64,000 nt of DNA from Brachionus manjavacas (taxonomy: Eukaryota; Rotifera; Eurotatoria; Ploima; Brachionidae): positions 2,175,501 to 2,239,500 of the forward strand of contig JAHQIY010000007.1 in the NCBI GenBank assembly GCA_019054805.1. Direction: 5' to 3'. This document shows, piece after piece, positions 39,479 to 59,919 of this stretch. A program made the translations under genes and the position numbers. How positions within the stretch are numbered: position 1 is the first letter of the stretch; every line of letters starts with the position of its first letter. A model generated the notes under the pieces. It did no database searches. It worked only from the letters and a program-made list of their open reading frames with translations, and was not told the origin of the DNA.

Positions 39479-40726
39479 ATGTCATTGTCAAAATCATTGA
39501 ACAGTTTTACCTACAAACTTTTCAACCAAGTAAATGCTGGAAAAGGTATATTATACAGAATTTAATTTATTTGGGAAATAATAAAGTCTATTTAAGATGA
39601 AAATTTTTTCATTTCACCATTTAGCATTTCGACTGCTTTGGCTATGTGCTATGCTGGAGCTAAATGTGAAACAGCTTCACAACTAAAAGACTTATTGAGC
39701 TTAACAAATTTGGAAGATGAGAAAATTTTGAGTCTGAATCAAGAATTAATTTCAAGTGTCAATAGCTTGAGCGGAGATGTTGTCATCAAGACTGCAAATA
39801 AACTTTATCCAAAACAGGGCTATGAAATTTTGAGCGAATATTTAAACTTGGTGCAAAAAAATTTTCATGCTGATGTTGAAAGTTTGAACTACAGCAATGC
39901 TGAAGAATCTGCCAAGACAATAAATGACTGGGTGTCCGGACAAACAAATGATAAAATACGAGATTTGATAAATCCGAACAGCATTAATGGCTTAACTAGA
40001 CTAATTTTAGTAAATGCAATTTATTTCAAAGGAAATTGGGATCTTAAGTTCGACTCTAATCTTACCACTGAAAAAGACTTCCATTTGGCAGATGGCTCGA
40101 CTAAAAAGTTCAAATGATGAAAAGCAACAAAAAGTTTAGATATATCTATAAGCCGGCACAAATCGATGCTGACATTTGTGAATTACCTTATGCTGGTGAG
40201 AATATTTCATTGACAATTATTCTGCCTCATGAAGGTTCCTCGTTGCACCAAGTGGAAAAACAGCTTAATGATTCTGTTTTGCATCAAATAATGACTTTGG
40301 AAATACCCAAGGAGAAAATAAATCTTCAAGTACCTAAATTCAAGCTTGAATTTAAAACAGAAGTAATTTTTATTTTTAGAAAAAATTTTCTTCGAATTAA
40401 AAAAATAATAATATTATTTTTAGTTGTCTGATCATTTTAAAAGAATGGGAGCAAATTTGCCTTTTGATGAATCAAGAGCTGACTTTGCTGGAATCACAAG
40501 TGATCCTGATGGTTTATGCATTTCTGAGGTAGTGCATCAAGCTGTTGTAGAGGTCAACGAGGAGGGAACTGAAGCTGCTGCTGCGACGGGAGTAATTATG
40601 AGAGCAAAAATGACAATGAATAGACCACCGTCTAATTTCATTTGTGATAGACCATTTTTATTTTTGATCAATGAAAAAAAACAAAGTGTAATTCTATTTT
40701 TTGGAAAATACACCAAAACTGAATAA
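39479..40726 (+). pseudogene. Serpin copy 1 (predicted P1 Lys), one-base frameshift
   Basis: Exons 39479-39545, 39597-40362 and 40424-40726, with introns of 51 and 61 bp. It encodes an intracellular (clade B-like) serpin: MSLSKSLNSFTYKLF start with no signal peptide, ENFFISPFSISTALAM, LILVNAIYFKGNW, hinge EEGTEAAAATG, C-terminal NFICDRPFLFLI and SVILFFGKY. The hinge pattern is that of inhibitory serpins. Counting from the P17 Glu, the loop VIMRAK/MTM puts Lys at P1, i.e. trypsin-like targets. At about 40,104-40,110 an A6 run is A5, shifting the frame after DGSTKK and giving a stop at once. Copies 2 and 3 have A6. Everything downstream is otherwise intact, so this is either a very recent pseudogene or a homopolymer error. 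Confidence 0.9.
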
Positions 40727-41499
40727 AAGATAAATGAATTTTTTTAATTTTGTGAAATTTGTTTACCTTTTTCTCCCCCTTGATACGAGCACAATATGAG
40801 GCAAGTAAAATATTTTGAAAAACAATTTTTGAAAGTCTATTAATTTTTGAGGACTACCCGATTTATTATTGTTGGAAAATAAATATTATCTTCTAATTCT
40901 ACTTGACTGAATTTTGTTCCTTAAATACCGTAGCAAATAGTATTCCAATATATACTTGTAACTATATAGGTTCAAGTTTAATGGAAAAGCTATTTTATAT
41001 TAATTAAGAATATATTTTGGTAACTTAAAAAATCTTAGACAAAATCCTGTCTGTCTTCTAAAGCTTATCGCTGCCCAAACATTTACTTTTATTGAACTCT
41101 TTTCCATTGCACCAACACATCTTGGTTTTGAAATTTTTTCTAGAGAATTGTATAAAGTAAACATATTTATCCCTATTTTTGTCTAATGGGCAAAATAAAT
41201 CGATTAAAATCGCACGATTTTTATGTTTTGGAAAAATCTTCTCTTTGCATCTTTTTAATTTAGTAAAAAAATTGACATTCTTCTTGCTCTTCTAAATAGA
41301 TAAGCCATTACTTTTATTTAAAGAGAAAAATTATTAGAGTCATGAATTTTTGTTTAGATTTAAATGCTGTTGATCAATTCTTACAATTCTAAATTGTAAA
41401 ATTCTACAATATCAATACCTATCCTCAATATTTTAGGCAGAATACTTACACACATACTAACTAACCGTATTTTTAGCGATTTTATTTTGATATTCTAAA
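40727..41499. other. Spacer
   Basis: No gene or repeat recognised. Confidence 0.5.
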
Positions 41500-41938
41500 G
41501 CTGCAAGCTTTAGTTATTACTAATAATAAAATTATTAACTGTGTCTATTTAAAAGCTATAATTTTTGATTTAAAACAAAATTTTTTATTTATTAATTTTA
41601 TTTGAAACAAATTTTGCAATAATTTTCTAATTACAACTTCAATTTTTGCTGAATTCGATTCTAAATTCTGAATTTGAATCTTACGAAATAAAAACCAGTT
41701 CGCTTTGTTAATATTTAAGCTTCTTAGTTTGTGTTTTATGGACAAAACACTAGGCAAAAGGTGTGCATTCCTTATTTGCAAAATAATAGCTTGTTAAATC
41801 TTGACTATTTAAAACTTTAAGACCAATAATTTAATTAAATAAATGAAAAAGAAACTTAAAAAAAAAGAATTCCAAAATATTCTATATTCTAATGCTAAAA
41901 TTAGGACCCTAGTGATTACTGAAAGTAAAGATTACTTA
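41500..41938 (-). mobile_element. LINE family B fragment, split by a family C insertion
   Basis: The reverse-strand peptide around 41,545-41,781 (RSLNINKANWFLFRKIQIQN) matches the linker of the family B copy at about 31,280-31,370. The adjacent sequence matches about 31,380-31,520. The match is interrupted exactly at the family C element and seems to resume for a short way after 43,480. Confidence 0.65.
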
Positions 41939-43467
41939 TTTATTTATTTATTGAATTGAATTAACCTCCTTTAAGGAGAAGTAAAAGAATTTAAAGATAA
42001 AATTTTTTTTTTGTGTTTTTGTGTTTTTTTAAAAAATGAAAAATTATTATCTAAAAATAAAATTACAAAAATAAAAAGGAACATTAGTTCGAAAATAGAA
42101 AAAGGGATGAAAGTTAGAAAGCAAGATAATTCGGACCAAAATTCATGAATTTCTTTTATTTTGAATTAGCTCATTTAGGAGAGTTCTGTAATGTTTTAAT
42201 TTTAAATTGCAAAGACATAACCAAATTGAATCAGATATACCATCATTAGAAATCAGATTAATCTTAAGATTTTCTTTAAGTTGGTTTATATTTACTGAAA
42301 TTTTTGAGGTTTCAATTTTAAAGTACTTGGAAATAAGTACTAAGTCGGAGGAAAAAGATTTATTAGAGGGGGGTCACTTAGCATATATTTTAAAAATTGT
42401 GATGATAGATAATTATATTTAATTGTATCAATAAAAGTTAGTTTTGAAAATAGATAAAGTTCATCAAAGTTGAATAATTTTAGTACTTTTAAGACTCGTG
42501 ACATGTGACAGTAGGCTTTTAAACCAAACATTTGTCTAATTAAGTTGTTTTGTAATTTATTTATTGAATCCTTTGTGGTCGAATTAAGAGTAAGAGCCTC
42601 AAGACCATATGTGAATTTAGATAAGCAAAATGTTTTGTATATAAAAGATTTGAATTTAGGTGAAGAGGTAGGACTATTTTTAGGCAGAAGATATGAAATT
42701 CCAAAAAAGCTGCTCTGAACTTTTTAAAATTTATAATTGCCTGTGTGTTAAGGTCAAGATTAGAATCTATAATGAATCCTAAGTATTTTAACTGATTTGC
42801 TTCTTCAAGTTCGGATCCATTAAGGTGAAATACCGACTTAAATAATTGAGTGCCAAAGTTAACAACTTTTGTTTTATTAGGGTTAAATTTTATTCTCCAT
42901 TTATTCCCATAAGATCCACAAATATGCAAAAGCATTTGTAGATGGGAGTCAACTGGGCTTAATAAGATTATATCATCTGCGTATACAATGATAGAAACAT
43001 TAAGATTTTTATAAAGAGCTCCAAGCTCATTGTTAAGGCATTCTATTATAAGATCATCAATATATATGTTGAAAAGAAAAGAAGATAAAATAGCTCCTTG
43101 TTTAACACCAGTTTCAATTTTAAAGGGTTTAGTTGTTAGATTATTTGGAAGAGATAAAACAGCTAGTGCTGAGTTATAATAAATCCTAAGCAATACCCAG
43201 TAGGAAGTATGCAGTCTCTTTAATAGTTTATAGAATAAGCCATCACGCCATATTTTGTCAAAGGCCTTTTCTGCATCTAAAGATGCTATCCTACATCCAG
43301 AGCCTTTATTGATGTAGTTAAGAGTTGTTTCTTTTAATACAAAAATGGCATGGTTACATGAGGTTTTTTCTTAAAACCAAATTGGTTATTACTAACTTTG
43401 TAAAGATCAGGGGAGTTAATTAGAATAAGTTTTTCTAGGATTTGAGCAAAGCAGTTTGAAATAGAAA
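41939..43467 (-). mobile_element. LINE family C, 5'-truncated, with 13-bp target-site duplication
   Basis: The reverse-strand RT reads NCFAQILEKLILINSPDLYK and NNQFGFKKK, then, after a one-base shift, CNHAIFVLKETTLNYINKGS and LDAEKAFDKIWRDGLF. An open frame at 42,561-43,193 then holds KIETGVKQGAILSSFLFNIY, IIVYADDIILLSP with an intact YADD, and GNKWRIKFNPNKTKVVNFGT. The 3' end near 41,940 is an (AAAT)n tail. The element is bounded by a perfect 13-bp duplication TAAAGATTACTTA (41,926-41,938 and 43,468-43,480). It is a 5'-truncated insertion into a family B copy and therefore younger than that copy. Confidence 0.88.
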
Positions 43468-43738
43468 TAAAGATTACTTAAGCTTTTTCACTATCTAAAC
43501 TCAGATGTTTTTTTATTTAAAGGTAGCTTTTAATAAACAACGATTTCTAATTAAATACCTTGCATGGAAACATATTTTTCTAACCTAAAATGTTTTATTG
43601 GATAAAAAAAATGCAACAAAATATTAACACAATTTATTGAATAAATGATCAATTATAATTAACTGGCATGAAGTTTTTACGTGAGTTAAAAAAAAATTGA
43701 ATTAGTTAAAAAAAATGTTCAATGGAATATTTTTTAAT

Positions 43739-44460
43739 TTAATTTTTTTTGGACCCTAGAGGAATTGCTGGCGAAATTCCATTGGATTTCTCAATTAATG
43801 AATGTTTAAAGACCAAAACTGAAACATCATAACCACACAAACTAAATGTCGTGTCATATGAAAAAATTGATTGATATTCAACATTTTTAATATTTTTTTG
43901 GTTTCTTTTAAAAGCTGGTCGTCTATACATATTATTCGAACATCTGGTACTGATAATATTTGCTTAACAAATCCAATATTCAAATGAAAAAAATGCATGT
44001 TTAACAGCTCGTCAGAACTAAAGCGTTTTAGTTTATTCAAAAATCACTTAATGTTTTGACATTGTTTGGTATTTCTAGACTTTAGATGAGGTGGTGCAGA
44101 TTTGTAAAGATTACTCGGTTCATCTACAAAACATTTTTGAGTAAGGATTTTGTATGTTGATGGCAGTGTTAGTGTAATTGGAACATCTTTTCTTTTTCTG
44201 TTTCCATGTGCAGAGCATACTGCAATAGAGTCATCACCAACATATTGAATTAATGTAGGAACTATACATTGGATTTTGCGTTTAGTAGAAAAAGTAATGT
44301 CATTGTTGTGACTTTCTATTAAAGTTGAATAAAATTTTTGAAACTTTTTATCACTTAAACCATTCAAATTTGAGTCATAATAGGACTTGAAAATGATGGG
44401 TTCATTTTTTGGCAATGGTTTATATGCACCCAGCTTTTGGTGAACTAATTTTACTGGAAT
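43739..44460 (-). pseudogene. MULE-like transposase relic
   Basis: The reverse-strand frame 44,415-43,795 is continuous except for one in-frame TGA after QCQNIK: SDKKFQKFYSTLIESHNND, IVPTLIQYVGDDSIAVCSAH, LLNMHFFHLNIGFVKQILSV and IICIDDQLLKETKKIL. It shifts once into FSYDTTFSLCGYDVSVLVFK and HSLIEKSNGISPAIPL. The YDTTF...VSVLVF block resembles the DDE-domain start seen in MULE-type transposase-derived proteins of invertebrates. The C-terminal half is missing. Confidence 0.5.
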
Positions 44461-44639
44461 GGATATTTTTTATAGGATCAAATTTTTTTAATATATCATA
44501 GATTTCAATTGTTTTAATTTTTTTGAATTCTAAAATCTTTTTTTTCTAAATTTTCCATTTTAAGCCAATAAACGAATACAAATTAATTTTTTATGATCAC
44601 ATTTATATAAGAGATGGAATTTAGCTTAAAATCAGTAAC

Positions 44640-44996
44640 AAATTTTAACTGTAAAAATTATTTGTTGCACGATTCTTAGTCTGTTTCGTAAAGTTTCCGT
44701 ATTTTAATTCTTGTTCCATTAAAAAAATTTCCGTATTTTAGATCTTTAAAAATTCAGTGATCTCTTCCGTATATTAGTTTAAAAAATTCCGTTAAATAAG
44801 AATTTTTTTGTTCCGTTTTTTAGTTTTCATTCTGTTAATTGAATGTTCCGTATTTTAGAATATGTTCCGTAGTTCCATTCCAGCGTTCCGTAGTGACGTT
44901 CCGTACTTTAGGTACAACCGACTAAAAATTAGTTACTTGAAAATTAGTTGACTTAATTTTAGCCGACTAAACTAAATTAGTTAAGTTAAGACCCAT
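44640..44996. repeat. hAT-type terminus with TTCCGTATTTTAG subterminal repeats
   Basis: About nine degenerate copies of TTCCGTATTTTAG lie between 44,685 and 44,910 at irregular spacing. They are followed by a CTAAAAATTAGT / GACTAAACTAAATTAGT block. The last bases, read inward from 44,995, are TAGTGATGGGTCTTAAC, like hAT terminal repeats. The partner end was not found. Confidence 0.45.
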
Positions 44997-45207
44997 CACT
45001 ATTTTTTACTTCGAGTCTAAAAATTGTTCTGCAAAATGTATAAGCTTATTTATTAAATCTTTGTATCACTCAAATTTAGTCTCTGCAAAATCTCTACAAT
45101 TTAATTTTAATGATTTTCTAAAGCATTTAGAGCTTTGCATATTTCAAATGTTCTTTAATGTTTGTGATAATTTAGTATTTATCTTGGTCTTAGAAAACAT
45201 TTAATTA

Positions 45208-46128
45208 CAGGAATGCTTTGACACTTAGATTTTACGTAATTTTACGTTATTTGACGTATTTTTACGTTAATTAACGTAATTTTTCGATAAATTATGTAAA
45301 ATTACTCTTGTAAAATTGCGAAAATTTACGTAATTTAACGTTATTTAACGTATTTTTACGTTAATTATCGCAATTTTGCAGAAAAAAAAATTGCCAAAGA
45401 CCATTTTTCTCAGCAGTTCTTTCCTTATTTTTTGAAAATTTAAAAATTTTTTAGCCACTCAAAAATTTATTTTTTGTTTAAAAAAAAATTAAAAATAAAA
45501 CTTCTTTTGAGTATAAATTTTTATACTTTAATAAATGTTATGATATGTTCTGGTACAGATCGTAAAATCTTAGCTTTAATTCGTTTTGAAGCTTTAGAGT
45601 TGTTCTCAGAAATAATTTTTCTCACATACTTAAAGTTAACTTTATTTTAAACAAGACTTTTAAGAAATTTTTTAAAAATTTACATTTTTAGAAGGTTGGT
45701 CAAACTGTTAGAAACAAAAAAAATTATTTTTGAATAAATTTGAAAATTTACGAATTTTTACCTATATTTTACTATTTATTACCATAAATTACAAGATCTT
45801 ACATGTAAAAAAATGATTTTTATATTAATTTACGTAAAATTTTGTAATCTTACTTTTGGTTAAGAAATTGGTCAAAAATTTCAAAAATCTAATTTTTTGT
45901 GAAAATTTGCGAAAAACAGCTGAAATTCGGCCATTTTTTGGCAATTTTTTTTTTCTGCAAAATTGCGATAATTAACGTAAAAATACGTTAAATAACGTTA
46001 AATTACGTAAATTTTCGCAATTTTACAAGAGTAATTTTACATAATTTATCGAAAAATTACGTTAATTAACGTAAAAATACGTCAAATAACGTAAAATTAC
46101 GTAAAATCTAAGTGTCAAAGCATTACTG
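45208..46128. mobile_element. Tc1/mariner-type MITE with ~191-bp terminal inverted repeats
   Basis: The left arm 45208-45398 and right arm 45937-46128 are inverted copies with, by eye, one substitution and one A-run length difference. Outer ends are CAGGAATGCTTTGACACTTA and CAGTAATGCTTTGACACTTA, both flanked by TA, as expected for Tc1/mariner insertion. The arms are built from TTACGT / AACGTA steps that form smaller palindromes. About 540 bp of non-coding AT-rich sequence lies between the arms, with no transposase. It is a non-autonomous foldback-like element. Confidence 0.85.
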
Positions 46129-46289
46129 TATATTATAATTATATTTTTGTATAAATAAAATTTTCTTTAAAATGAAAATTCTCATAGAAAATTTTTATTA
46201 TCTCTTGTTCGGAAAAGACAATTAAAGCTAAATATTCTATAGCCGTGACTGTCGAAGAACACGAAAAGGAAACCTGAATTAAGTAGTTT

Positions 46290-46790
46290 TAAAGAGTTTG
46301 TGTTTAATAATGGTGAGCTAAAACCAAATTTACCGGTGATGAACTAAACATAAACCTCAAGAGAATATTGTATTGTCATTAATTCAACTAAAGGTCATCA
46401 ACTGACTTTATTTGTTTTAAGAGAATGATGATGAGTTACCAACTCTAAATATCGTCATACTAACCGAAATGTAACAGCTTAATAGATAGGATCAACAAAA
46501 TAATAAAAAAATGGTCTGATGCTTTTCATATTGAAAACCAAAACAACTGGGACGAACTGCTACAATGCTTGGCGTTCACGAATAATACCTCGGCACATGC
46601 AACAGCGAATCACACGTCATATCAAGTGATATTAGGACGAAAGCCCAAAGTACCAATTGATTTGATCTTTGTTGATCAATTTTGTGAAAGGGAAGTAATG
46701 GTTGATGATGAACCAGCATCAAAATGTCTAACGAAGAGATCGTATAGATTGACCCAAGGTTTCTAATGTAAACATTACATTTGAAATCAT
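46290..46790 (+). mobile_element. LTR retrotransposon integrase fragment (Ty3/gypsy-like)
   Basis: The frame from about 46,478 reads NSLIDRINKIIKKWSDAF, NNWDELLQCLAFTNNTSAHA and YQVILGRKPKVPIDLIF. It corresponds to the C-terminal part of a retroviral-type integrase core, where NWDE.LP..AYN.S.H..TG.TPF.L.FGR.P is the common pattern. It is broken on both sides with no LTR pair visible. The text at 46,733-46,790 recurs at 63,822-63,875. Confidence 0.6.
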
Positions 46791-47242
46791 GAAGCAAGGC
46801 TAAATGGCGGCGAATAATATTAAGTGACGTGATGAACATTAAAGTAGACAATAGAAAAACCGAACTTAGAATCAAGACTAAGGATTTTATTTATAGCATA
46901 TTTTTTATATTTGACAGAAGACTAACCTCTCAGACATTTGTTGATATTTTTTTAGAACATAAATTCAGAAAATTTTCTCTGCTTTTGACCCAGATTAGTG
47001 GAAAAATGGTTCAAATAAAGAAGAGCAAAATAAAGAAGTGTAAAACAATAATTATTTTAATGACTTTAAAAGAATAATTTTTTTATTTGAATAGGTTTAG
47101 TTTCTTAATTTTCAATTTAATTATGTATCAAATATTTTATATAATTCACATAAGATTGAATAATAAATTTAAAAGAATCAATTGAAGCGCGAAGCTTTAT
47201 ACTACAATAAATGTTTGAAGCAAAAATGAAATTTTTTTAAAA

Positions 47243-49050
47243 ATGTTTTTTAAAAAAAAAATTTGCATATTGGTGTTGATTCTTTCAGTGATTAGAGTAA
47301 ATAAAAAATAAATAATATTTTAAATTCTTACAAGTTCATTTTTCAGAGTGCATCATTCGATAGACCAAAGCCTAATTTACTCAAGCTTAAATCTCACATA
47401 AATCCTCCAGAATGTGGAAGAAGAATCGGTGAAATTAGAGAAGAAAGAGTAAATAAGATTGTAGGCGGCCAGCAAGCTGATCCAGAAGATTGGGGTTGGC
47501 AAATTGGTTTAGAAATTAAAGGATCATTTAAATGCGGAGGGTCTCTTGTAAACACAGAATGGGTCATTACTGCTGCTCATTGCATTATTTCAAAAGATTT
47601 TTCTGGATACACTGTTAAATTAGGCTTACACAATCGTTTAAACCCAGAAAGTTATTCAATTACTAGACAAGTATCCCAAATTTTACTCTATCCTGATTAT
47701 GATGAAAAAAAATTAGAAAATGACATTGCTTTGATTAAGCTTATTGTAAGTGGAATCAATTTTTAAATTTACTATTTCGTTGATTTTAAAATTTATTAAT
47801 TTATTACCAATGATCAAATTAAAAAAAAAAATTAGTCGATTAATTTAACTCTTGAAAATTCAAAGTAAATTAATTAACATTTTTTATCATCGCACATCTT
47901 CATTTTTTAAAGATTTTTCTTTTAAATTTTTACATTTTAGGAATTTTATTTCTTAATTTTTGATTTAAATGGAAGCAATTAAATTCTTACCTTTTCAAGA
48001 AATGCAATTTTAAAAGTAAGAAGTAAAAATTTGACTGTTAATAGAGAAAAAAAATTAAGCTGGAAAGTTTTCAACTAATAAAGACGAAAGGTCTTCCTTT
48101 TAGTTGAAAAAAATTCAAAATGCAATAAATAAATAAAAAAATAAAACTAGAAAATGCCTATGCATCGTATCACAAAGCATTTACTTCCATAAAATTTATT
48201 AATTTATTATATGTTTTTGTAAAATTAGAATTTTATTTAAAATTATTTTTATAATCAGCAATTATTAGGCAAAATATTTAAATTACCATTAAATTTAGTC
48301 TTTTTTATGATTAATCATTGAAAAATTTAGTCTCCTGTTGAATACACTGATCAAATTTTGCCTATTTGTCTTCCAAGTAAAAATTATGACTTTACTAATA
48401 AAATGGCATGGGCAACTGGATGGGGAACCTTGAATTCAGGTGGATTTCCTACAACAAAACTAATGGAAGTTGAAATGCCTATTTTAAACAATTCGGATTG
48501 TAGAACCAAATATTTACTAACCCAAGATTACTACATAAATACGACTAATTCCATTTGTGCAGGTGAGAAAGGCAAAGGAAAAGATACATGTCAAGGAGAT
48601 TCTGGTGGTCCATTAGTCGTGAAAGTGGGTGAAAAATGGGAATTAGCCGGAATAACTAGCTGGGGAATCGATTGTGGTGACGGTGGGGTATATACAAAAA
48701 CAACTTTTTACATCGATTGGATATTATCACATATACAAAGTGATATTTCTTTTTATTTATAATTAAATTTATAATTGTAAAATATTAGCTTAAAACTAAT
48801 TTTTTTAGCTTTTTCTGTATCAGTTACTACAACAGTTAATAAGACTACGACGTTTTACAAAGAAATCACAAAAACAGTGCAAAAAACTTCATCCGTTCAA
48901 TATTCAGAATTCAAAAATTTAAGCTCAAGTGATGCTAGTGCTACAAGCATTCAAATTACTTCGACTAAAGAAGCACCTGGAGATTCTCTAATTATTCAGC
49001 AAATTTTTGAATTAATAATTAACTTTTTGAAAAATTTTCAATTTTTTTAA
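47243..49050 (+). CDS. Secreted trypsin-like serine protease, S1 family, with Thr/Ser-rich tail
   Basis: Four exons, 47243-47296, 47347-47745, 48331-48739 and 48809-49050, all with GT-AG introns (50, 585 and 69 bp); 367 codons. Exon 1 is a signal peptide (MFFKKKICILVLILSVIR). A propeptide with PPECG follows, then activation at VNK/IVGG. The catalytic triad is His in VITAAHC, Asp in NDIALIKL and Ser in CQGDSGGPL. The residue six before the Ser is Asp (KDTC), the S1-pocket Asp189 of trypsin-like enzymes cleaving after Arg/Lys. Exon 4 (SVSVTTTVNKTTTFYKEITK ... IIQQIFELIINFLKNF) adds a Thr/Ser-rich stalk and hydrophobic end. If it is not spliced, the protein ends at 48,762 just after the protease domain. 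The gene lies between serpin copies 1 and 2. Confidence 0.88.
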
Positions 49051-50379
49051 TTCTTTTAAAATTACAAATTAAGTGAATAGTTTAAATTAAAATTATTTTT
49101 TTATTTAAAAAAATAAATTTTTAAAAATTTTTCTTTTAAGCTTAAATATTTGTCTGTTTAAAATCAAAAAATAATCAAATATTGATATCCTCTTTATTAA
49201 AAATTATCGTTTGAATTTGATTAGTAATTTCAATTGATTAGTGACTAATAAATTGAAAATTTTCAGTTTTCAGAGTCAACTCAAACTTACAAGATAATTC
49301 TCTTAAGATATTAGACTTAATTTCATTGAAAATTCATTAACTACTCATTTATAAATCATCTTATAGAAAAAATAAAACAAAAATTCATTTCTTCTCAATT
49401 CATATAATTTTTTATAAATTGGTTTTCTTTAAAAATTTTAAGAATTGACGTTAATTGAAAATAATAATAATAATGATAATCATCATTTGAAAAATTGAAA
49501 ATAATAATAATGATAATCATCATTTGAAAAATTGAAATTATTGAAAGTATAAATTATTCGCTATTGCAACATTGAAAAATAAAAACGGAGAGTTTGATTC
49601 TCTCTTTTTTTAATTTTTTACTTTTTATTTTGGATTTTTTTTTCAATCTGAAATCGCTTTTGCTCTTCACAAATAAGCAAATAGATAAAAATGATGGAGG
49701 GCTAAGTGGCTAATAGATGGAATTTTTGTGGACATCACGTCAGCTTATTGTGTAAAAATCTGGAATATCAATTACAAAATGATAATGATATAAATTAGGC
49801 TTAAAAAATTCTTAAATATCTAAAAAAATAATTAAATAAAATATTATATAAAAGCTTGAAATATCTATAAGATGGATCAACTCGTGATGTGTAATTAAGC
49901 AAGAATATTTAAAAAAAAAGAACCGAAAAACTGGTCCTTAATTTTTTTAATTTAAACATAACATCAAAAGAAAAATTAACGTATTTTTACAAAATGCTAT
50001 TTTTAATTTAAAAAATTTTAAGTAAACCTGCAAGCGACCAAGTCAAAAATAGTATCAAGCCAAGTCTTTATTTGTGGACTCCTTTCTTTAGAAAATCTTA
50101 AAATAATTTTGTTTTTAGTAAAAAAATTAAAAGATAATGCAACATGTCTCAAAATTTTCTTTAAATACCAAAATTATTTTAAAATAAAAGAAATTTAAAA
50201 ATCTTAAAAACTTTAAAAAAATATTAATTTATAAGTTAACTGAGTATCAATTATCTTCTATCTAACATCCTCGAATATGAATACTTAATTTTCTTATTAC
50301 AAATAAAAAACAGAAAATATTGAATTTAATGAAAAAGTAATGATTTAAAAAAAGCTTCAAAAGTTTGAATTTTTTTCAC
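49051..50379. other. Spacer with a short tandem repeat
   Basis: AT-rich. A two-unit tandem repeat lies at 49,454-49,530 (units of 40 and 37 bp, ATTGAAAATAATAATAA ... TGATAATCATCATTTGAAAA; the units differ by one TAA). No genes. Confidence 0.6.
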
Positions 50380-50399
50380 TTTAATTTAGAACGACCGCT

Positions 50400-51270
50400 T
50401 TTGGCGTTGAAGAATGCTAAAACTCGTTTCGTTATGCATTTGGTGCAAGACTTAAAATTAAAAAAAAATTATAGGAAAATTAAAAATTGTGCTGTCAAAC
50501 TTATGATTTTTGTTTCCAATATACATAACTTTACATTTATTTAAGTTTAAGTCAGTAGCCTACGTAATCGCCCAGGTTGAAACGGAATCTATATCCTTTT
50601 GTAAAGCTAAATTATCAGAAAGTTGGTCAACAACTGCAATAATTAATTATACAAATAATTGCAACAAATAAGAGAGGACCAAGCACTGAACCTTGTGGAA
50701 CAACACTAGAAATATCGAGCCATTCCGATTCTGCGCTACCAAGGACAACTCTTTGCTTTCTTCCACCTAAAAAATTTCTTATCCTTCAAATCCATAAGCT
50801 GATAACTTATGAAACTTTGTCACTGTGTTGTAAACTGAGAGCTGGGAAAAGTTATTTTAAACTGAGTAGAATAACCAATTGATTTTTGAAACTTTTTGTG
50901 TCAGTGGTATTCCTTCTTAATTCATCAAATAAATTCCAATATTCATTTGTTCTATTTGTAAAAAAGTGGTATATTGCGTCACAGTTTTTGATGAGTTCTC
51001 TTTTCAGTACCAATTGGCCTCGTCTTGTTCGTCCTGCTGGGCAGTCTAAAGCATTTGAGGCCAAAATTTGATGGCCATTAATCAATTGAACATTATCATG
51101 AGCATGTTGGATCTTGTTTAACTAGATAAGATCACCGCATGCACGTCTCTCTGTAAGTGTACCCCATTTTAGTGCTTCTAGTCTTTCAAAATAATGCTTT
51201 GATTTGAGACCAGCACAGCTTTTGTCAAATACAGTAGCAGTCTCTTCATTTCGCTTTTTGAAGGAGGAAA
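50400..51270 (-). mobile_element. LINE family A fragments in permuted order
   Basis: Reverse-strand peptides: at 50,852-51,085, LVLKRELIKNCDAIYHFFTN and EYWNLFDELRRN are an RT C-terminus. At about 50,400-50,790, RKQRVVLGSAESEWLDISSV, VPQGSVLGPLLF and KDIDSVSTWAI, LNKCKVMYIGN form the RT middle, with the YADD part deleted. On the reverse strand the C-terminal piece precedes the middle piece, so this is not one simple element but two partial copies or a rearranged one. It has many stops. Confidence 0.65.
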
Positions 51271-51460
51271 CATTTTGGAAATGCACCTAACATTTCGGCT
51301 CTCTTATTTTGCTTTTTATTTTAACTTTTTAGCAGACTCCCAATATCCCATCTCAACAAAAAAATTTGCTTGCCAGTCTGCTCGATTGAAGCAATGGTAG
51401 TTAAAAAAAAAATAAAAATAAAAATTTTATTTATATTTTTATGGCCATTTATGGACGACG

Positions 51461-51872
51461 AGATATAGACGAGGTATAGACAATGAGAATATTAAAAAGT
51501 TAAAATCCTTTCTGTACTTTTTATACTTAATCATTTAAATTTATTTGGCCCTCTTCCTTTTTGTACTCTCTGTTCTTTTTGTACTTTTTGTTCTTAATGG
51601 TAATAAAAAAAAGTTTTAATTAATCAATATTTTAAATATCAATTTTAAATTTAACTAATATTTTTCTTCAGCATACCCGAATCCCTAAACCAGGGCTCCG
51701 CCTCGGACCCGATTTAAGTTTTAAATTAATGATTAAAATTACCATTAATTACAAAAAGTACAAAAAGGAAGAGGGCCAAATAAATTTAAATTATGAAAAA
51801 GTACTAAAAATACAGAAAGGAAAATGTTTTTTTAAAAGTTTGATCTCATTGTCTATCCATGTATCTGACTGA
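51461..51872. mobile_element. Palindromic MITE-like element
   Basis: Imperfect inverted arms at about 51,461-51,605 and 51,737-51,872. They share ATAGACAATGAGA, CCTTTCTGTA, AAATTTATTTGGCCCTCTTC, CTTTTTGTAC and TTAATGGTAAT in inverted order. The left arm has a roughly 20-bp internal duplication (CTCTGTTCTTTTTGTAC). The loop holds a GC-rich patch, AGGGCTCCGCCTCGGACCCG. It is non-coding and ends about 210 bp before the start of serpin copy 2. Superfamily not determined. Confidence 0.65.
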
Positions 51873-52083
51873 TCGGTTGACTTCAGCCATCCCAATTACA
51901 AAATGAGTTTTTTTCATAATCAAAAATTTTATCAATATAATTATGACTAAAGGAAAAGAAGAAAAATCAAATTAAAATTTTTTTAATTAAATCGCGAGCT
52001 TTTTACATTACTCAGAAAAATTTACGCATTTTAATCGAAAATTCTAAACAAAAACTTTTAAATTTTTAATATTCTCGGCAATA

Positions 52084-53332
52084 ATGTCATTATCAAGTTC
52101 ATTAAACAGCTTTACCCACAAACTCTTCATTCAAGTAAATACTGGTAGAGGTAAATACAAAATTTAATTTATTCTGAACAAAATTGTATTATCTATTTAA
52201 GATGAAAATTTTTTCATTTCACCATTTAGCATTTCGACTGCTTTGGTCATGTGCTATGCTGGAGCTAAATGTGAAACAGCTTCACAACTAAAAGACTTAT
52301 TGAGCTTAACAAATTTGGAAGATGAGAAAATTTTGAGTCTGAATCAAGAATTAATTTCAAGTGTCAATAGCTTGAGCGGAGATGTTGTCATCAAGACTGC
52401 AAATAAACTTTATCCAAAACAGGGCTATGAAATTTTGAGCGAATATTTAAACTTGGTGCAAAAAAATTTTCATTCTGATGTTGAAAGTTTGAACTACAGC
52501 AATGCTGAAGAATCTGCCAAGACAATAAATGACTGGGTGTCCGGACAAACAAATGATAAAATACGAGATTTGATAAATCCGAACAGCATTAATGGCCTAA
52601 CTAGACTAATTTTAGTAAATGCAATTTATTTCAAAGGAAATTGGGATCTTAAGTTCGACTCTAATCTTACCACTGAAAAAGACTTCCATTTGGCAGATGG
52701 CTCGACTAAAAAAGTTCAAATGATGAAAAGCAACAAAAAGTTTAGATATATCTATAAGCCGGCACAAATCGATGCTGACATTTGTGAATTACCTTATGCT
52801 GGTGAGAATATTTCATTGACAATTATTCTGCCTCATGAAGGTTCCTCGTTGCACCAAGTGGAAAAACAGCTTAATGATTCTGTTTTGCATCAAATAATGA
52901 CTTTGGAAATACCCAAGGAGAAAATAAATCTTCAAGTACCTAAATTCAAGCTTGAATTTAAAACAGAAGTAATTTTTATTTTTAGAAAAAATTTTCTTCG
53001 AATTAAAAAAATAATAATATTATTTTTAGTTGTCTGATCATTTTAAAAGAATGGGAGCAAATTTGCCTTTTGATGAATCAAGAGCTGACTTTGCTGGAAT
53101 CACAAGTGATCCTGATGGTTTATGCATTTCTGAGGTAGTGCATCAAGCTGTTGTAGAGGTCAACGAGGAGGGAACTGAAGCTGCTGCAGCTACTGGTTTT
53201 TTTATGGTGGCCAGTTTTGCTTTGAAATCTTTTTCGCCTAATTTCATCTGTGATAGACCATTTTTATTTTTAATCCACGAAAAGAAGCATAATTCAATTT
53301 TATTTTTTGGAAAGTTTTCCAAGCCAGAATAA
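52084..53332 (+). CDS. Serpin copy 2 (predicted P1 Ser), intact
   Basis: Exons 52084-52150, 52202-52968 and 53030-53332 (introns 51 and 61 bp), 378 codons, the normal size for the family. No signal peptide (MSLSSSLNSFTHKLF), so a nucleocytoplasmic clade B-like inhibitor is likely. Conserved blocks are FFISPFSISTAL, GAKCETASQL, LVNAIYFKGNW, AGENISLTIILPHEG, ISEVVHQAVVEVNEEGTE, the Ala-rich hinge AAAATG and FICDRPFLFLIHEKK. Serpins trap target proteases by inserting the cleaved loop into sheet A; the small residues of this hinge are those needed. By hinge counting the loop FFMVAS/FAL has Ser at P1 with Phe at P1', suggesting elastase- or chymotrypsin-like targets (inference; P1 may be off by one or two). 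It carries an ALVM instead of ALAM at the end of the first conserved block. Confidence 0.93.
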
Positions 53333-53712
53333 TTACTTTTCTTTTTTTTAATTATAATAGTGCTTTAGATTCTTTTAGTTAGACAAAATTTAATAACAGC
53401 ATAATAAAAAATTAAAAAAACCAAATTCTTTAAACACTATATAATTGATCTAAGAATTTAAAAAAATAATCAAATTTGTTGAAGTTTATCTATTCAAATT
53501 TTTCTTACTAGAAATTTTATACAGTATATCATAAAAAGTTAGAATCAAATTAAAATAGAAAATAAAAATGTTTTCTTTGAAATTTAAAAAATCATCAATA
53601 ATGAATTTTATCAAATTAAAGCTGATTTTTACTACTTTTTAATAAATTATAACACTTACACCTAAAAATTACAGTACAAGATTAAACTTACTTCATCAAT
53701 TTCTTTCCTCTA
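53333..53712. other. Serpin copy 2 3' flank
   Basis: Non-coding AT-rich sequence unlike the 3' flanks of copies 1 and 3. Confidence 0.5.
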
Positions 53713-54030
53713 CCTTCAATTCAATTGGTTGTCAGACTCGTGGAGGAATGCAAAGAAGGTTTCGAATCAAAATATATTGAATACCCAACTCCATTGTGTA
53801 ATTACTACCTAACTATTTCTTCTTTTTTTTTTCTGAAAAACCAGACATTTAAACATATATATCCTGTTATTCTCTATTTCAATATATCTAATCTCAATTT
53901 TCTTCTATTTTAATCTTTTTTTAATTTTAATTTTTATTTTTCTTTCTTTTTTTTATATATTTTACTCATTTTTTTTTTATTTTTAATCTGAAGGAGCATT
54001 AGCTCGGTACAGAAAACAAATAAACAAAAT
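53713..54030 (+). mobile_element. LINE family B, 5'-truncated 3' end
   Basis: Forward-strand copy matching the reverse complement of 27,300-27,560. It encodes VVRLVEECKEGFESKYIEYP and LCNYYLTI (RT C-terminus) and ends with CTGAAGGAGCATTAGCTCGG, TACAG and AAACAAATAAAC. It was inserted downstream of serpin copy 2. Confidence 0.75.
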
Positions 54031-54790
54031 AATATTACTCTAAGTCATTTTTTTAAATATAAAATAAACTTATTAAAAAAAATTCTCAATCTAATTAAAG
54101 GAAGACTACCTAAAATTTGCCAAAATAGAGAAAAAATAGGCAAAAATAAAAAAACTGATCAACAAAGATGGCAAATTGGATGTCTTTTGAAAGATCAGAC
54201 AATGACTGAAAGAGAAATAGCAGAGTTAACGAAATAACGAACTAAAGGACATCAAATAATAATTATAATAATAATAATAATAATAAGCTACGACAAGCAA
54301 GCTTGCGAAGGCGGTCTACTAAGAGATCGCCTATGGTAGCACATTACGCAATAAAAGGAAAACTTCAGAAATAAAAGAAACTGATAAGTTTATGTAGCCT
54401 AGTTGACATGATTGGTTAAATAGAAAAAAAAGTTACAAATTTTTTAAAAATCAATTTTAAAATAAGAATTTTTCAATAAAATAAATAAAATTAATCAATT
54501 AGTTAAATAATCAAAACTGATTTCTTTCGAATTTTTTAAATAATAAAAATTTTTGTCTAAAAATTAAAAAAGTTAGGAATAATTTATTTTTAACTTTTAC
54601 TTTACATTTTACTTTAGAAGATTGCTGTAGAGTTGTTATAAGCATTTAACAAAATCTAAAAAAATAGCCAAAAACTTTTTTAAAAACTAATTCAGATAGA
54701 AGAACTCTGATTTTATTTTCAGATTTCTAAGGATCGACAACCTAAATTGCAATATTACATTGTGGAAAAAAATGGGAAAAGGCAAAAGAT
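54031..54790. other. Spacer with a TAA microsatellite
   Basis: An (ATA)n run at about 54,255-54,286 is followed by a GC-richer 70-bp patch (GCTACGACAAGCAAGCTTGC, GAAGGCGGTCTACTAAGAGA). It may be the junction of an eroded repeat. I see no tRNA-like fold. Confidence 0.35.
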
Positions 54791-54799
54791 CTTTTGTTC

Positions 54800-54910
54800 A
54801 GCCCCAGCTGATAACATGATCATTTAAAGGATGTATACGAAATTACTGCAGGTTTTCCTCGAGGCTCTGTAATTATCTATTTTTTATTTAATTTATTTAT
54901 TATTGATACG
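54800..54910 (+). mobile_element. Small LINE RT fragment
   Basis: It reads DHLKDVYEITAGFPRGSVII, then YFLFNLFI, equivalent to the RT block with AGVPQGSVLSP.LFN. The neighbouring sequence is too eroded to assign to a family. Confidence 0.45.
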
Positions 54911-57900
54911 ATTAAGAAGAATAATAAGAATAAGAAGGTAACATATCTAAATTCAAAAACAATTCTAAAAATGATGAAAAGACTCAATGTCTATTCTTTA
55001 AGAAAAAAATAAGAATAGGTAAGAATAGATATTTAAGAGACATCAAGAAGTTGGTTTTAATTTTTGAAAGAATCAAAGGAGATCCTTTTGAAGATTAAAG
55101 GTGAAAACGGATATAATATGTTTTCTCGCAACTATAAACTAGCATTTTGATTTCCAAATGAAACTAATACTAAAAACTACAAAGCACTGAATTTGCTGAG
55201 GACAAAAAAACATCACAATAAAGGAAAAAAAATAATCGACAACAGGTCCATTTTTCGCTGCACTGAACCTTATTTTTAAATTAATCTATTTTTCAAAGTT
55301 CTTAAATTTGATCATTTTTAATGTGATTTTTTAATAAAATTTTTGAAAGGACAACTCTTCTTAAATAAAAAACGGGCTACCAAATGTGTTTTACGTAACT
55401 TACAAAAGGATACCGGCGAGTTCTTGATAAGTAATAGTATTTTTAAATCGATAGCGCTGAATCTCCGCTAAAAGTATAAATGATTAATTTATTTATAGGT
55501 CTTTACATTTCATTATTACAGTGCGTTGAAGATAAGTAACTAAAAAACCTAACTTAATTAGTTTTCATCTATGAAATTCTCTATCTATATACTCAAAAAA
55601 AATTTAAAAACTTTTTTTATTTAATAAAAGCTCTGATTTATGGATGAGTTTTTATTTTGGTTTGGCCATTTTTTATGTATTTTAAAAAAATAATATTTTT
55701 CATTATAAAAACTCATTTTATCAGTATAAAAAAAAAATATTTTGATGAAAGAGCATTCAATTCAATTTTACGTAAGAAAAATAAAAATCTACGGGTTCAA
55801 TCGATCCTTTCCCGAATTATAGGGAGGCAAAGACAACCAACTCTTAATATAAAAGAAATTTTTTTCTCGTTTTCAAGAGGTATTATTGCTTTCAATTGAT
55901 ATATTCTTCATCTTTCCTGAATTATTAGACTTCTATGTCATTTTTATCTCCTGTTAGGACAATTTCATTTTTCATGACGTCTTAGCACAGTTCATAAAAA
56001 AGCTGAGTTTTTTCTTTTTTTTAACAACTCTTTATTGTATTTAGCAATTCCAAATTAATCTAAATTAATTTTTTTCTTGTACCATAAAAATACTTACATA
56101 ATACAACTGAACATCCAGCACACAATAAAATAAAATTAAAAATAATAAACATTGGCAATCTTGAAATCTAAACCAATATCTTAAAAATATAAACCCTAAT
56201 TTAAGATTTCTCTTATATTCATTTTCACTTATATTATCCAATTTAAAATATTTAAATCAAAAGCATGTGGTTTTAAAATAATCCATATTAAATAATGCAA
56301 GTTTACTCATCAAAGGCACTGTCATTTTAATGTTTTATTTTAATTTTTAATTCTTTTTCATTACCCAAGATGCGTTTTTTGAAATAAATAAATAATAAAA
56401 AACAATAAAACATCAAAAAGATTTAATTTGATTATTTATTCAATTGTCTGATAAAAAAATAAAAAATTTAATTTTAAATAAATGGGGATCAAAACTTGAA
56501 CTAATGGCGATCAAAGTCTAATCTTATTAGTTAAAGATTAAATGTAAAAAATATGTCGTCTTAGTATTTTTAAAATTAGAAATTATCATCGAAAAAAAAA
56601 TAAATTACGAACGCATTTCCTAATTACATTTAATAATTAGAACCTGATATTTTTTTTACTTTACGGATCTAAAAATTCTAAAAATTAATATAATTCAAAC
56701 GATAATTTAATATTGTTAATAAATGTAATCTAAATCAAGAAAATTTTCATTTTTGGAAAAAAAGAACCTTTATTATGGTACCGGTTGCAGATCCAGTCAA
56801 ACTCTCAGTCCTTATACCAATCCTTGAAGACCAGGACCAGTCCCTTATAAGTCCCGGAGCCAAAGAGAAACTGTACTGGTCCGATCGAATTCAATGAAGA
56901 ATCTGGGTCTCTGGCCAACATTATTATTTCTTCTATTTTTTATAATTAATAACTTTTTTTATCAAGAATTTCATTCACAAATTTAATTTTTTTTTAAATT
57001 TTTTATTAGTATCTTAATTAAGAAAAAAAATATTTGATATTTTCCTGGTTTTAAACTTTTTAATGTTTATAAACTAATTTTATTAATTATAAAAATTCAT
57101 TGAAGTTTCTTCTTAATGAAATTTTCAAAAGTCAAAGCAATAATTGAAATATTTTTAAATCAAATTAAATTAGTTCTTTATCAAACACTATTATTAAAAA
57201 AAATATTTTTTTTTTGCAAAAAAAAACTTTTTCCCAATTAATAAATTTATAATAAAATTGCAGACTTTTTCAAATTAAAAAAATTTAACGTAAAAATTAG
57301 ATGAAAATATTCTTATTATAAAAATTTATTCGGGAAATTCAACAAAATAAAAGGTTTAAAAATAGCTAATTCCGCATCAAAATATTAGTGAAGTATTCGT
57401 TTGATACAAGATTTCTATGTAAAAATGAACACATATATGAACAATATTTTATTTCATGAAGAATAGATCAAAAATAATTTAGGTAACATGTTTTCTAAAG
57501 TATTTTGTAATGGAGTATGTGTTTTATAAACTTAATCTCAGGAAATCTTTGATAATTTGCTTTGATAGTTTTAAAATTCTTATAAAATTTCAAAATCTCT
57601 AAACCAAAAAATCTATAAAATTTGAGAAAAAAAATGAGCGTTTTGTGTTTTTTTAACTATTAAGCGTTTTATCAAAAATTTCAACAGCAAAAAATTTTAT
57701 TAATAAGGTATTTAAAGAATTTTCATAACGATCAAATCCCAAGATGTATCTTTGATCACCTAGGACACACAATTTTTTTTTTAAAAGAATTTTTTTACCT
57801 AGGTTTTTTTTGGGATTATTCATTTAACTTTTTTTTTAATTTTTTTAATAATCTAAGTAAAAAAATAATGCATAATCATGAAATAGTTTGAGGGTTTATG

Positions 57901-58670
57901 TAAGGGGATATTAAAAGTTTTAAAAAAATCAAAAACGATAAATATTTTTTTGATTCTTTATGATTCACGTAAAATGGTTTTAATACACAAATATAAAAAT
58001 GATTATTCAAGATAGTATTTTTAGGATTAAAACTATTTTTATTTACTCTATTCTATACAATTACAAAAATTAACTTAAATAGCTGATTTAAAATAAATTC
58101 TAAATAAAATTTTTTAATTTTTTTAATAAGAAAATCGCAAAATCAAATCATTTTATAGCTGCACCCTCTGTTAAACAGGTAAAGCTTAAATTTACCCATC
58201 AAACATTAACTTTATTGATTTTATAAATGAATCATCAATGGAATGAAATTTTAAAAAATGATAATTAATCATTCATCCAATTTTAGCTTTGCAATTTTTA
58301 AACATATTCCATCATTCACTTTATATCGAAAAATGGCTTAAGATAAATTTTTATTAGACTAAAAATTAGTGAATTTACGATTTATTTATTCTAGATTAGA
58401 TAACAGCCATTAAGTATGGTAATAATTTTGATTAATCATACAATGAGATTATTTATTTTAATTTAGTTAAATGAAATTTTTAAAATATTTTAGTTTCTTT
58501 ATGAAATTCTTTTTTAAATTATGAATGCAAGCGAAAAGTAATTTATCAAATTATAATTTTTAAAAAAAAATCACAAATATTTTACATTTACTTAGAAAAA
58601 TAATCCTATTTAAACCGAAATTTTTCTTTTTTACTTAAAAAATTCCAAAATTTAGATTTTTTTTACGAAA
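54911..58670. other. Long AT-rich spacer
   Basis: No gene supported. The open frame at 55,657-55,899 is low-complexity. The only distinctive block is the GC-rich one at about 56,765-56,925 (listed separately). Confidence 0.5.
56765..56925 (-). repeat. hAT-terminus-like GC-rich block
   Basis: Read on the reverse strand from 56,925 it begins TAATGTTGGCCAGAGACCCA. It carries repeated GGACCAGTAC / GGGACTGGTCCTGG / GGACTTATAAGGGACTGG motifs in both orientations. Terminal TAATGTTGGC and subterminal GACTGGTCC repeats are the layout of hAT ends. No second end or transposase was found. Confidence 0.4.
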
Positions 58671-59919
58671 ATGTCATTATCAAGTTCATTAAACAGCTTT
58701 ACCCACAAACTTTTCAACCAAGTAAATGCTGGAAAAGGTATATTATACAGAATTTAATTTAATTGGGAAATAATAAAGTCTATTTAAGATGAAAATTTTT
58801 TCATTTCACCATTTAGCATTTCGACTGCTTTGGCTATGTGCTATGCTGGAGCTAAATGTGAAACAGCGTCACAACTAAAAGACTTATTGAGCTTAACAAA
58901 TTTGGAAGATGAGAAAATTTTGAGTCTGAATCAAGAATTAATTTCAAGTGTCAATAGCTTGAGCGGAGATGTTGTCATCAAGACTGCAAATAAACTTTAT
59001 CCAAAACAGGGCTATGAAATTTTGAGCGAATATTTAAACTTGGTGCAAAAAAATTTTCATTCTGATGTTGAAAGTTTGAACTACAGCAATGCTGAAGAAT
59101 CTGCCAAGACAATAAATGACTGGGTGTCCGGACAAACAAATGATAAAATACGAGATTTGATAAATCCGAACAGCATTAATGGCTTAACTAGACTAATTTT
59201 AGTAAATGCAATTTATTTCAAAGGAAATTGGGATCTTAAGTTCGACTCTAATCTTACCACTGAAAAAGACTTCCATTTGGCAGATGGCTCGACTAAAAAA
59301 GTTCAAATGATGAAAAGCAACAAAAAGTTTAGATATATCTATAAGCCGGCACAAATCGATGCTGACATTTGTGAATTACCTTATGCTGGTGAGAATATTT
59401 CATTGACAATTATTCTGCCTCATGAAGGTTCCTCGTTGCACCAAGTGGAAAAACAGCTTAATGATTCTGTTTTGCATCAAATAATGACTTTGGAAATACC
59501 CAAGGAGAAAATAAATCTTCAAGTACCTAAATTCAAGCTTGAATTTAAAACAGAAGTAATTTTTATTTTTAGAAAAAATTTTCTTCGAATTAAAAAAATA
59601 ATAATATTATTTTTAGTTGTCTGATCATTTTAAAAGAATGGGAGCAAATTTGCCTTTTGATGAATCAAGAGCTGACTTTGCTGGAATCACAAGTGATCCT
59701 GATGGTTTATGCATTTCTGAGGTAGTGCATCAAGCTGTTGTAGAGGTCAACGAGGAGGGAACTGAAGCTGCTGCAGCTACTGGTGTAATTATGATGACAA
59801 GAATGGCTTTAATGCTAGAACCTGCCAATTTCATCTGCAATAGACCATTTTTATTCTTAATACATGAAAAGAAGCATAATTCAATTTTATTTTTTGGAAA
59901 GTATTGTAAGCCAGAATAA
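58671..59919 (+). CDS. Serpin copy 3 (predicted P1 Arg), intact
   Basis: Exons 58671-58737, 58789-59555 and 59617-59919 (introns 51 and 61 bp), 378 codons. Scaffold as in copy 2. The hinge EEGTEAAAATG is inhibitory in type. The loop is VIMMTR/MALML, with Arg at P1 by hinge counting, pointing to trypsin-like targets. The C-terminus is NFICNRPFLFLIHEKK, NSILFFGKYCKPE. No secretion signal. It is a mosaic: the first 45 bp or so of exon 1 match copy 2, while the end of exon 1 and all of intron 1 match copy 1 (one mismatch). The last 110 bp or so of coding sequence again resemble copy 2. AATAAA overlaps the stop codon. Confidence 0.94.

Follow-up and report, generated by a model that had tools for sequence, protein, structure and literature searches.

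How can three neighbouring serpin genes share an almost identical body, an intron included, and encode strongly divergent reactive-centre loops? The genes lie on the forward strand of a 64,000-nucleotide stretch of Brachionus manjavacas DNA (hereafter the window), where an initial annotation had described them as a serpin trio with a common scaffold. Our gene models and alignments bore out the trio, its coordinates and its boundaries.

39479-40726, + strand, serpin A, three exons (gene model)
39479..39545, + strand, serpin A exon 1 (gene model)
39597..40362, + strand, serpin A exon 2 (gene model), 766 bp against 767 in B and C
40103..40107, + strand, run of five A in serpin A (six in B and C), 1-base deletion, frameshift and stop after 195 aa
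40424..40726, + strand, serpin A exon 3, loop GVIMRAKMTMNRPPS, predicted P1 Lys; body tract ends at 40581
52084-53332, + strand, serpin B, three exons (gene model)
52084..52150, + strand, serpin B exon 1 (gene model)
52202..52968, + strand, serpin B exon 2 (gene model)
53030..53332, + strand, serpin B exon 3, loop GFFMVASFALKSFSP, predicted P1 Ser
58671-59919, + strand, serpin C, three exons (gene model)
58671..58737, + strand, serpin C exon 1, B-like to 58704 and A-like from 58712
58789..59555, + strand, serpin C exon 2, Pfam PF00079
59617..59919, + strand, serpin C exon 3, loop GVIMMTRMALMLEPA, predicted P1 Arg, Pfam PF00079
C 58789..59774, + strand, homogenised body tract, with intron 2 (59556-59616) inside
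C 59776..59826 (A 40583-40633, B 53189-53239), + strand, divergent loop segment (alignment)
C 59827..59919 (A 40634-40726, B 53240-53332), + strand, post-loop tail (alignment)

Three serpin genes in one window

All three copies belong to the serpin superfamily (PF00079); in serpin C the profile scored 263.9 bits on exon 2 and 106.3 bits on exon 3 (cut-off 27). Intron positions are common to the three gene models. The hinge EEGTEAAAAT, aligned to serpin B1 (4ga7), is present in A, B and C, and this small-residue hinge, together with a loop of standard length, predicts inhibitory serpins. Of 203 matched sequences the best three, and so the nearest solved relatives, are leukocyte elastase inhibitor, serpin B4/B3 and serpin B3. 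They would place the trio among the intracellular-type, clade-B-like serpins, and the proteins, which start with MSLSxSLNSFT close to the serpin core, would by eye lack a signal peptide. P1 is placed by the 17-residue register of the serpin loop, which gave a predicted Lys in A, Ser in B and Arg in C, the same residues as in the initial annotation. We infer protease inhibition by these proteins and their target proteases, that of C probably being trypsin-like.

Serpins B and C have an open frame through the loop (378 aa each), whereas the stop in A precedes the loop. Serpin A is therefore either a pseudogene or an assembly error, and we lean towards a real young lesion; with A frameshifted, this assembly contains two intact genes of the trio at most. 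Two long ORFs that together contain 43 homopolymers of five or more bases had no internal stop, a weak control since these ORFs were picked as open. The deletion in A, and the poor assembly to be expected of near-identical 1-kb repeats, could also point to the whole trio as an assembly artefact or haplotype collapse. The copies, however, are 12.6 and 6.6 kb apart with unrelated flanks and distinct loops, a DNA search of the 114-Mb assembly revealed no further copy, and A-like and C-like loops are independently present in Brachionus plicatilis (see below), so that an artefact is the least probable of the explanations that we considered. Besides the three copies, that search returned one 54-base match at 83%, which lies where the query covers the AT-rich intron 2. 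Two more, diverged serpin genes lie on other contigs (C13 and C8), bringing the detectable serpin genes in the assembly to five.

Other elements were observed around the genes. Between serpins A and B there is a trypsin-family gene with two ORFs (PF00089; window 47305-48762, +), whose KDTCQGDSGGP motif we take to indicate trypsin-like specificity; such specificity would suggest a fit to the Lys and Arg loops. As evidence that this neighbour is the serpin target, however, its position counts for little, since trypsin stretches number at least 157 genome-wide. Elsewhere, tandem trypsin-domain stretches (G000:C3:519914-526774) have pairwise equal scores (169.6 twice, 168.5 twice), suggesting very recent duplication or homogenisation. 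The window also contains a 185-nt inverted repeat (45206-45390 and 45946-46130; arms 99% complementary and separated by 555 nt) that is probably a small transposon of recent origin, a reverse transcriptase remnant between serpins A and B (PF00078; 42561-43370, -) and, by eye, several more reverse transcriptase-like ORFs.

Body identity ends at the hinge

In the following, differences are given in the order AB, AC, BC. Over the body (C 58789-59774, 986 alignment columns) the copies differed at 5, 3 and 4 columns, with A's 1-base gap counted, in line with the few differences per pair first estimated by eye. Exon 2 had 5, 3 and 4 differences in 767 bp, exon 3 up to the hinge 1, 1 and 0 in 159 bp, and intron 2 had 0/61 in each pair, so that the intron is indeed as conserved as the exons. 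The longest identical runs spanned 479, 479 and 600 columns; none of 10,000 column shuffles matched them in any pair, which excludes chance as their origin. The first differing base beyond the body is C 59775, equivalent to A 40582 and B 53188, and these are exactly the breakpoints that had been annotated. From there the loop segment (C 59776-59826) differed at 26, 20 and 22 of 51 positions, confirming a strongly divergent stretch of about 50 bp, while the post-loop tail differed at 18, 22 and 8 of 93. Divergence had been said to continue through the C-terminus and the 3' flanks: the flanks are indeed unrelated, but the tail is better conserved than the loop, where divergence is at its maximum. 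Upstream, exon 1 differed at 12, 6 and 6 of 67 positions and is thus related too, and intron 1 at 16, 1 and 17 of 54, being alike in A and C only.

Synonymous divergence followed the same mosaic. From 0.27-0.69 in exon 1, dS fell to 0.016-0.022 over the body and rose to 0.99-1.57 in the loop; depending on the pair, it was 0.43, 1.34 or saturated in the tail, which has only about 16 synonymous sites. The change at the hinge boundary is at least 20-fold. Synonymous divergence that stays the same across the hinge had been named beforehand as the result that would speak against conversion; instead, body and downstream values are far apart. Together with the identity of intron 2, this change means that selection on the protein does not explain the homogenised body, as had been argued.

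Could the same pattern have arisen with no conversion at all, if one gene was duplicated recently and the loop then changed very fast under positive selection? The body is about 99.5% identical, and loop dN is high (0.41-0.73, against 0.04-0.13 in the tail), making the loop the fastest piece within the unconverted part. However, synonymous divergence jumps at the hinge as well and is still high in the tail, and the last four codons of A ahead of the divergence have synonymous differences only. Exon 1 has diverged and the flanks are unrelated. Moreover, loop dN/dS does not reach 1 in any pair, with loop dS near saturation, so the loop offers no demonstration of positive selection, and the presence of A-like and C-like loops in B. 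plicatilis makes the loops older than the body identity. We therefore strongly disfavour recent duplication with loop selection and consider it very improbable.

The common tract has unequal ends

When the odd copy out was scored at each informative column of exon 1 and intron 1, the string AAAAAABBBBBBBBCBBBBBBBB was obtained. The odd copy was A at the first six columns (58679-58704) and B at 16 of the next 17 (58712-58778), the remaining one being C; 6 A and 16 B columns would fall into this order by chance once in 74,613 cases. A thus enters the common tract inside exon 1, and B does so only where intron 1 ends. Downstream, A departs at 59775, whereas B and C separate at 59785. The identity of B and C in their first 41 bp suggests an additional conversion patch.

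These ends bear on exon shuffling or partial duplication, by which a body segment would have been pasted once onto old 3' ends. Such an event would leave a sharp 3' end, and the boundaries of all copies do fall within 10 bp (C 59775 versus A, 59785 for B versus C). Nevertheless, the 5' ends are related, the tract starts differ for A and B, and intron positions are common to the copies, features more readily explained if sequence was replaced between whole genes already in place than if a segment was inserted. Patches with unequal ends fit gene conversion better than one pasted block, and we regard shuffling, functionally close to a single conversion event, as very unlikely. Alternative C-terminal exons were likewise rejected: each copy has its own full set of three exons, and the boundary comes after intron 2. 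Since the distance from this intron to the body/loop boundary is about 150 bp, splicing is not what sets the boundary.

Bodies group by species in B. plicatilis

The nearest protein to the trio is B. plicatilis P0001 (92% identical, full length), whose loop differs from that of C at 1 of 15 residues. P0121 and P0123, also from B. plicatilis, are partial proteins that cover 79 pre-hinge residues and everything after them. The A loop (VIMRAKMTMNRPPS) and that of P0121 (VIMRGRMTMNKPPS) differ at 3/15 residues. P0123, the nearest candidate for the B loop, carries a third loop that is closer to C (6/15 residues different) than to B (9/15), so orthology with B is uncertain. Predicted P1 is Arg in P0001 and P0121 and Ala in P0123. 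P0001 and P0123 are presumably neighbours, as both have the same longest contig (31,054 bases). P0121 and P0123 both begin at the same internal methionine (MTLEIPK), a hint that the upstream body was lost or collapsed in the B. plicatilis assembly.

In the 79 residues ahead of the hinge no difference separates A, B and C (0/79), P0121 and P0123 differ at two and A and P0121 at 10, and P0001 is 7/79 from each of the two partial proteins. In B. plicatilis, then, a homogenised look is apparent at the protein level in the P0121-P0123 pair only, with the body of P0001 apart. We counted sites that group the sequences by species against sites that group them by loop type, with loop types paired by loop similarity, so that the loop half of the count is partly circular and the body half is not; the sites are not independent. 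For A/C the counts were 4:0 in the body and 0:6 in loop plus tail (Fisher p 0.0048), for A/B 9:0 and 0:4 (p 0.0014) and for B/C 4:0 and 0:2 (p 0.067, not significant). Bodies thus group by species, with zero sites for grouping by loop (79 residues, protein level). The tail alone gives P0121 no priority as A's partner (A-P0121 6/30, A-P0001 5/30). Concerted evolution was accordingly found within the species in DNA, intron 2 included, and between species in protein, over the 79 residues. In Brachionus calyciflorus, by comparison, the paralogues P0002 and P0003 share 67% identity in the body, which shows that serpin paralogues do diverge there in the absence of homogenisation. Finally, exon 1 of C has none of the private residues of A or B relative to P0001, which favours C as the donor.

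Two of the loops are kept rather than exchanged

The initial annotation had pictured the trio as a cassette system with interchangeable warheads. Our data did not support this picture: we saw no loop exchange, and a protein search of the assembly with exon 3 returned five matches, all five being the five serpin genes, with no moved loop and no silent donor cassette among them. The 1/15 and 3/15 changes against B. plicatilis indicate that the C and A loops have been kept, not shuffled.

Among relatives of C, 120 were listed and 104 had a readable hinge; P1 is Arg in 82 of these, and 24 have exactly MMTR. The C loop is thus both common and conserved. The MRx[K/R] pattern of A occurred in 9 of the 104 and in 4/111 readable loops of a second listing (P0121 included), and its holders include amphioxus and B. 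calyciflorus. The GFF start of the B loop was found in none of the readable loops of 240 listed proteins. A search with the B loop plus tail for B-like loops yielded only P0001 and P0002, both full-length proteins (two of five candidates), P0123 being too short to qualify; the B loop thus seems to have no clear counterpart in other species.

Recurrent conversion as the probable explanation

Collectively, these results argue for recurrent ectopic gene conversion among older paralogues that ends at the hinge and retains distinct loops, to which we give a probability of nearly 0.9 (about 0.87). The conversion proposed at the outset is upheld here by intron 2, the dS shift and the grouping by species; conversion itself, and an origin of the paralogues before the split from B. 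plicatilis, are well supported. Under gene conversion, three paralogous serpin genes would have been duplicated before that split, and ectopic conversion would later have run from exon 2 through intron 2 and halfway into exon 3, and in A and C would also have taken in intron 1 and part of exon 1. C is perhaps, even likely, the donor. Conversion would halt at the hinge where the loops are too different to pair and too little homology lies beyond, namely 93 bp of imperfect homology followed by unrelated flanks; a special mechanism would be unnecessary, and loop heterology alone could stop conversion there. Selection may act at the loop too, with selection for distinct protease specificities purging conversions that cross it. 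The outcome would be one body with separate, mostly stable loops: a conserved Arg in C, Lys in A (Arg in its B. plicatilis counterpart) and a small P1 residue in B.

It is conceivable, though we think it rather doubtful, that in Brachionus C repeatedly overwrites the bodies of its two neighbours while selection keeps the loops apart, giving several specificities on one refreshed scaffold. If so, five detectable serpin genes set against at least 157 trypsin-domain stretches would have their specificities kept on that scaffold, and a copy broken in its body, such as A, could be restored by a later conversion with its loop intact.

Comparison with known systems

Mouse serpin gene bodies are homogenised by gene conversion. 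The rodent SERPINA1/SERPINA3 clusters (alpha1-proteinase inhibitor, Spi-2) resemble the trio in having tandem genes with similar bodies and divergent loops. They differ in being secreted, clade A and of many copies with birth and death, whereas the trio comprises three clade-B-like genes, two of whose loops are kept across species. That loop hypervariability is known in other serpins had been noted, and the literature agrees: a review by Ohta explains reactive-centre hypervariability by conversion plus selection (PMC3966226), and woodrat SERPINA3 paralogues differ in the proteases that they inhibit (PMC12646145). Insects likewise combine one body with many loops, as in Manduca serpin-1, with mutually exclusive C-terminal exons (via PMC3966226), and in Pteromalus PpSerpin-1, where alternative splicing acts at the hinge end (PMC10513286); there, a single gene has alternative exons, whereas the rotifer genes are separate.

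Five Branchiostoma belcheri amphioxus records named 'leukocyte elastase inhibitor-like' (P0080, P0084, P0085, P0095 and P0102) have bodies 100% and loops 19-73% identical over 10 pairs. Their annotators treat them as isoforms of one gene, unlike the separate genes of the trio. Their loops include both MMTR and MRAR types, resembling C and A, either by convergence or as an old pair of specificities. Among the matches listed, three frog records have bodies 94-97% and loops 21-43% identical.

Within the same Brachionus complex, the mmr-b mate-recognition genes undergo concerted evolution (PMC3495898); whole repeats are homogenised there without a protected variable segment, unlike in the trio. 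We found no paper on a rotifer serpin cluster in the open-licence literature, subscription journals being mostly outside it, and the suggestion that the arrangement may be new for this lineage stands to that extent. A common body with a divergent loop is a known serpin pattern, of which the trio is a rotifer case with unusually clean two-species evidence. With two species, three genes and a sharp boundary at a functional hinge, it presents compact, datable concerted evolution around a protected variable segment, and it opens the way to asking whether conversion is halted at the loop by selection or simply by a loss of homology, a question that is hard to address in the large rodent clusters.
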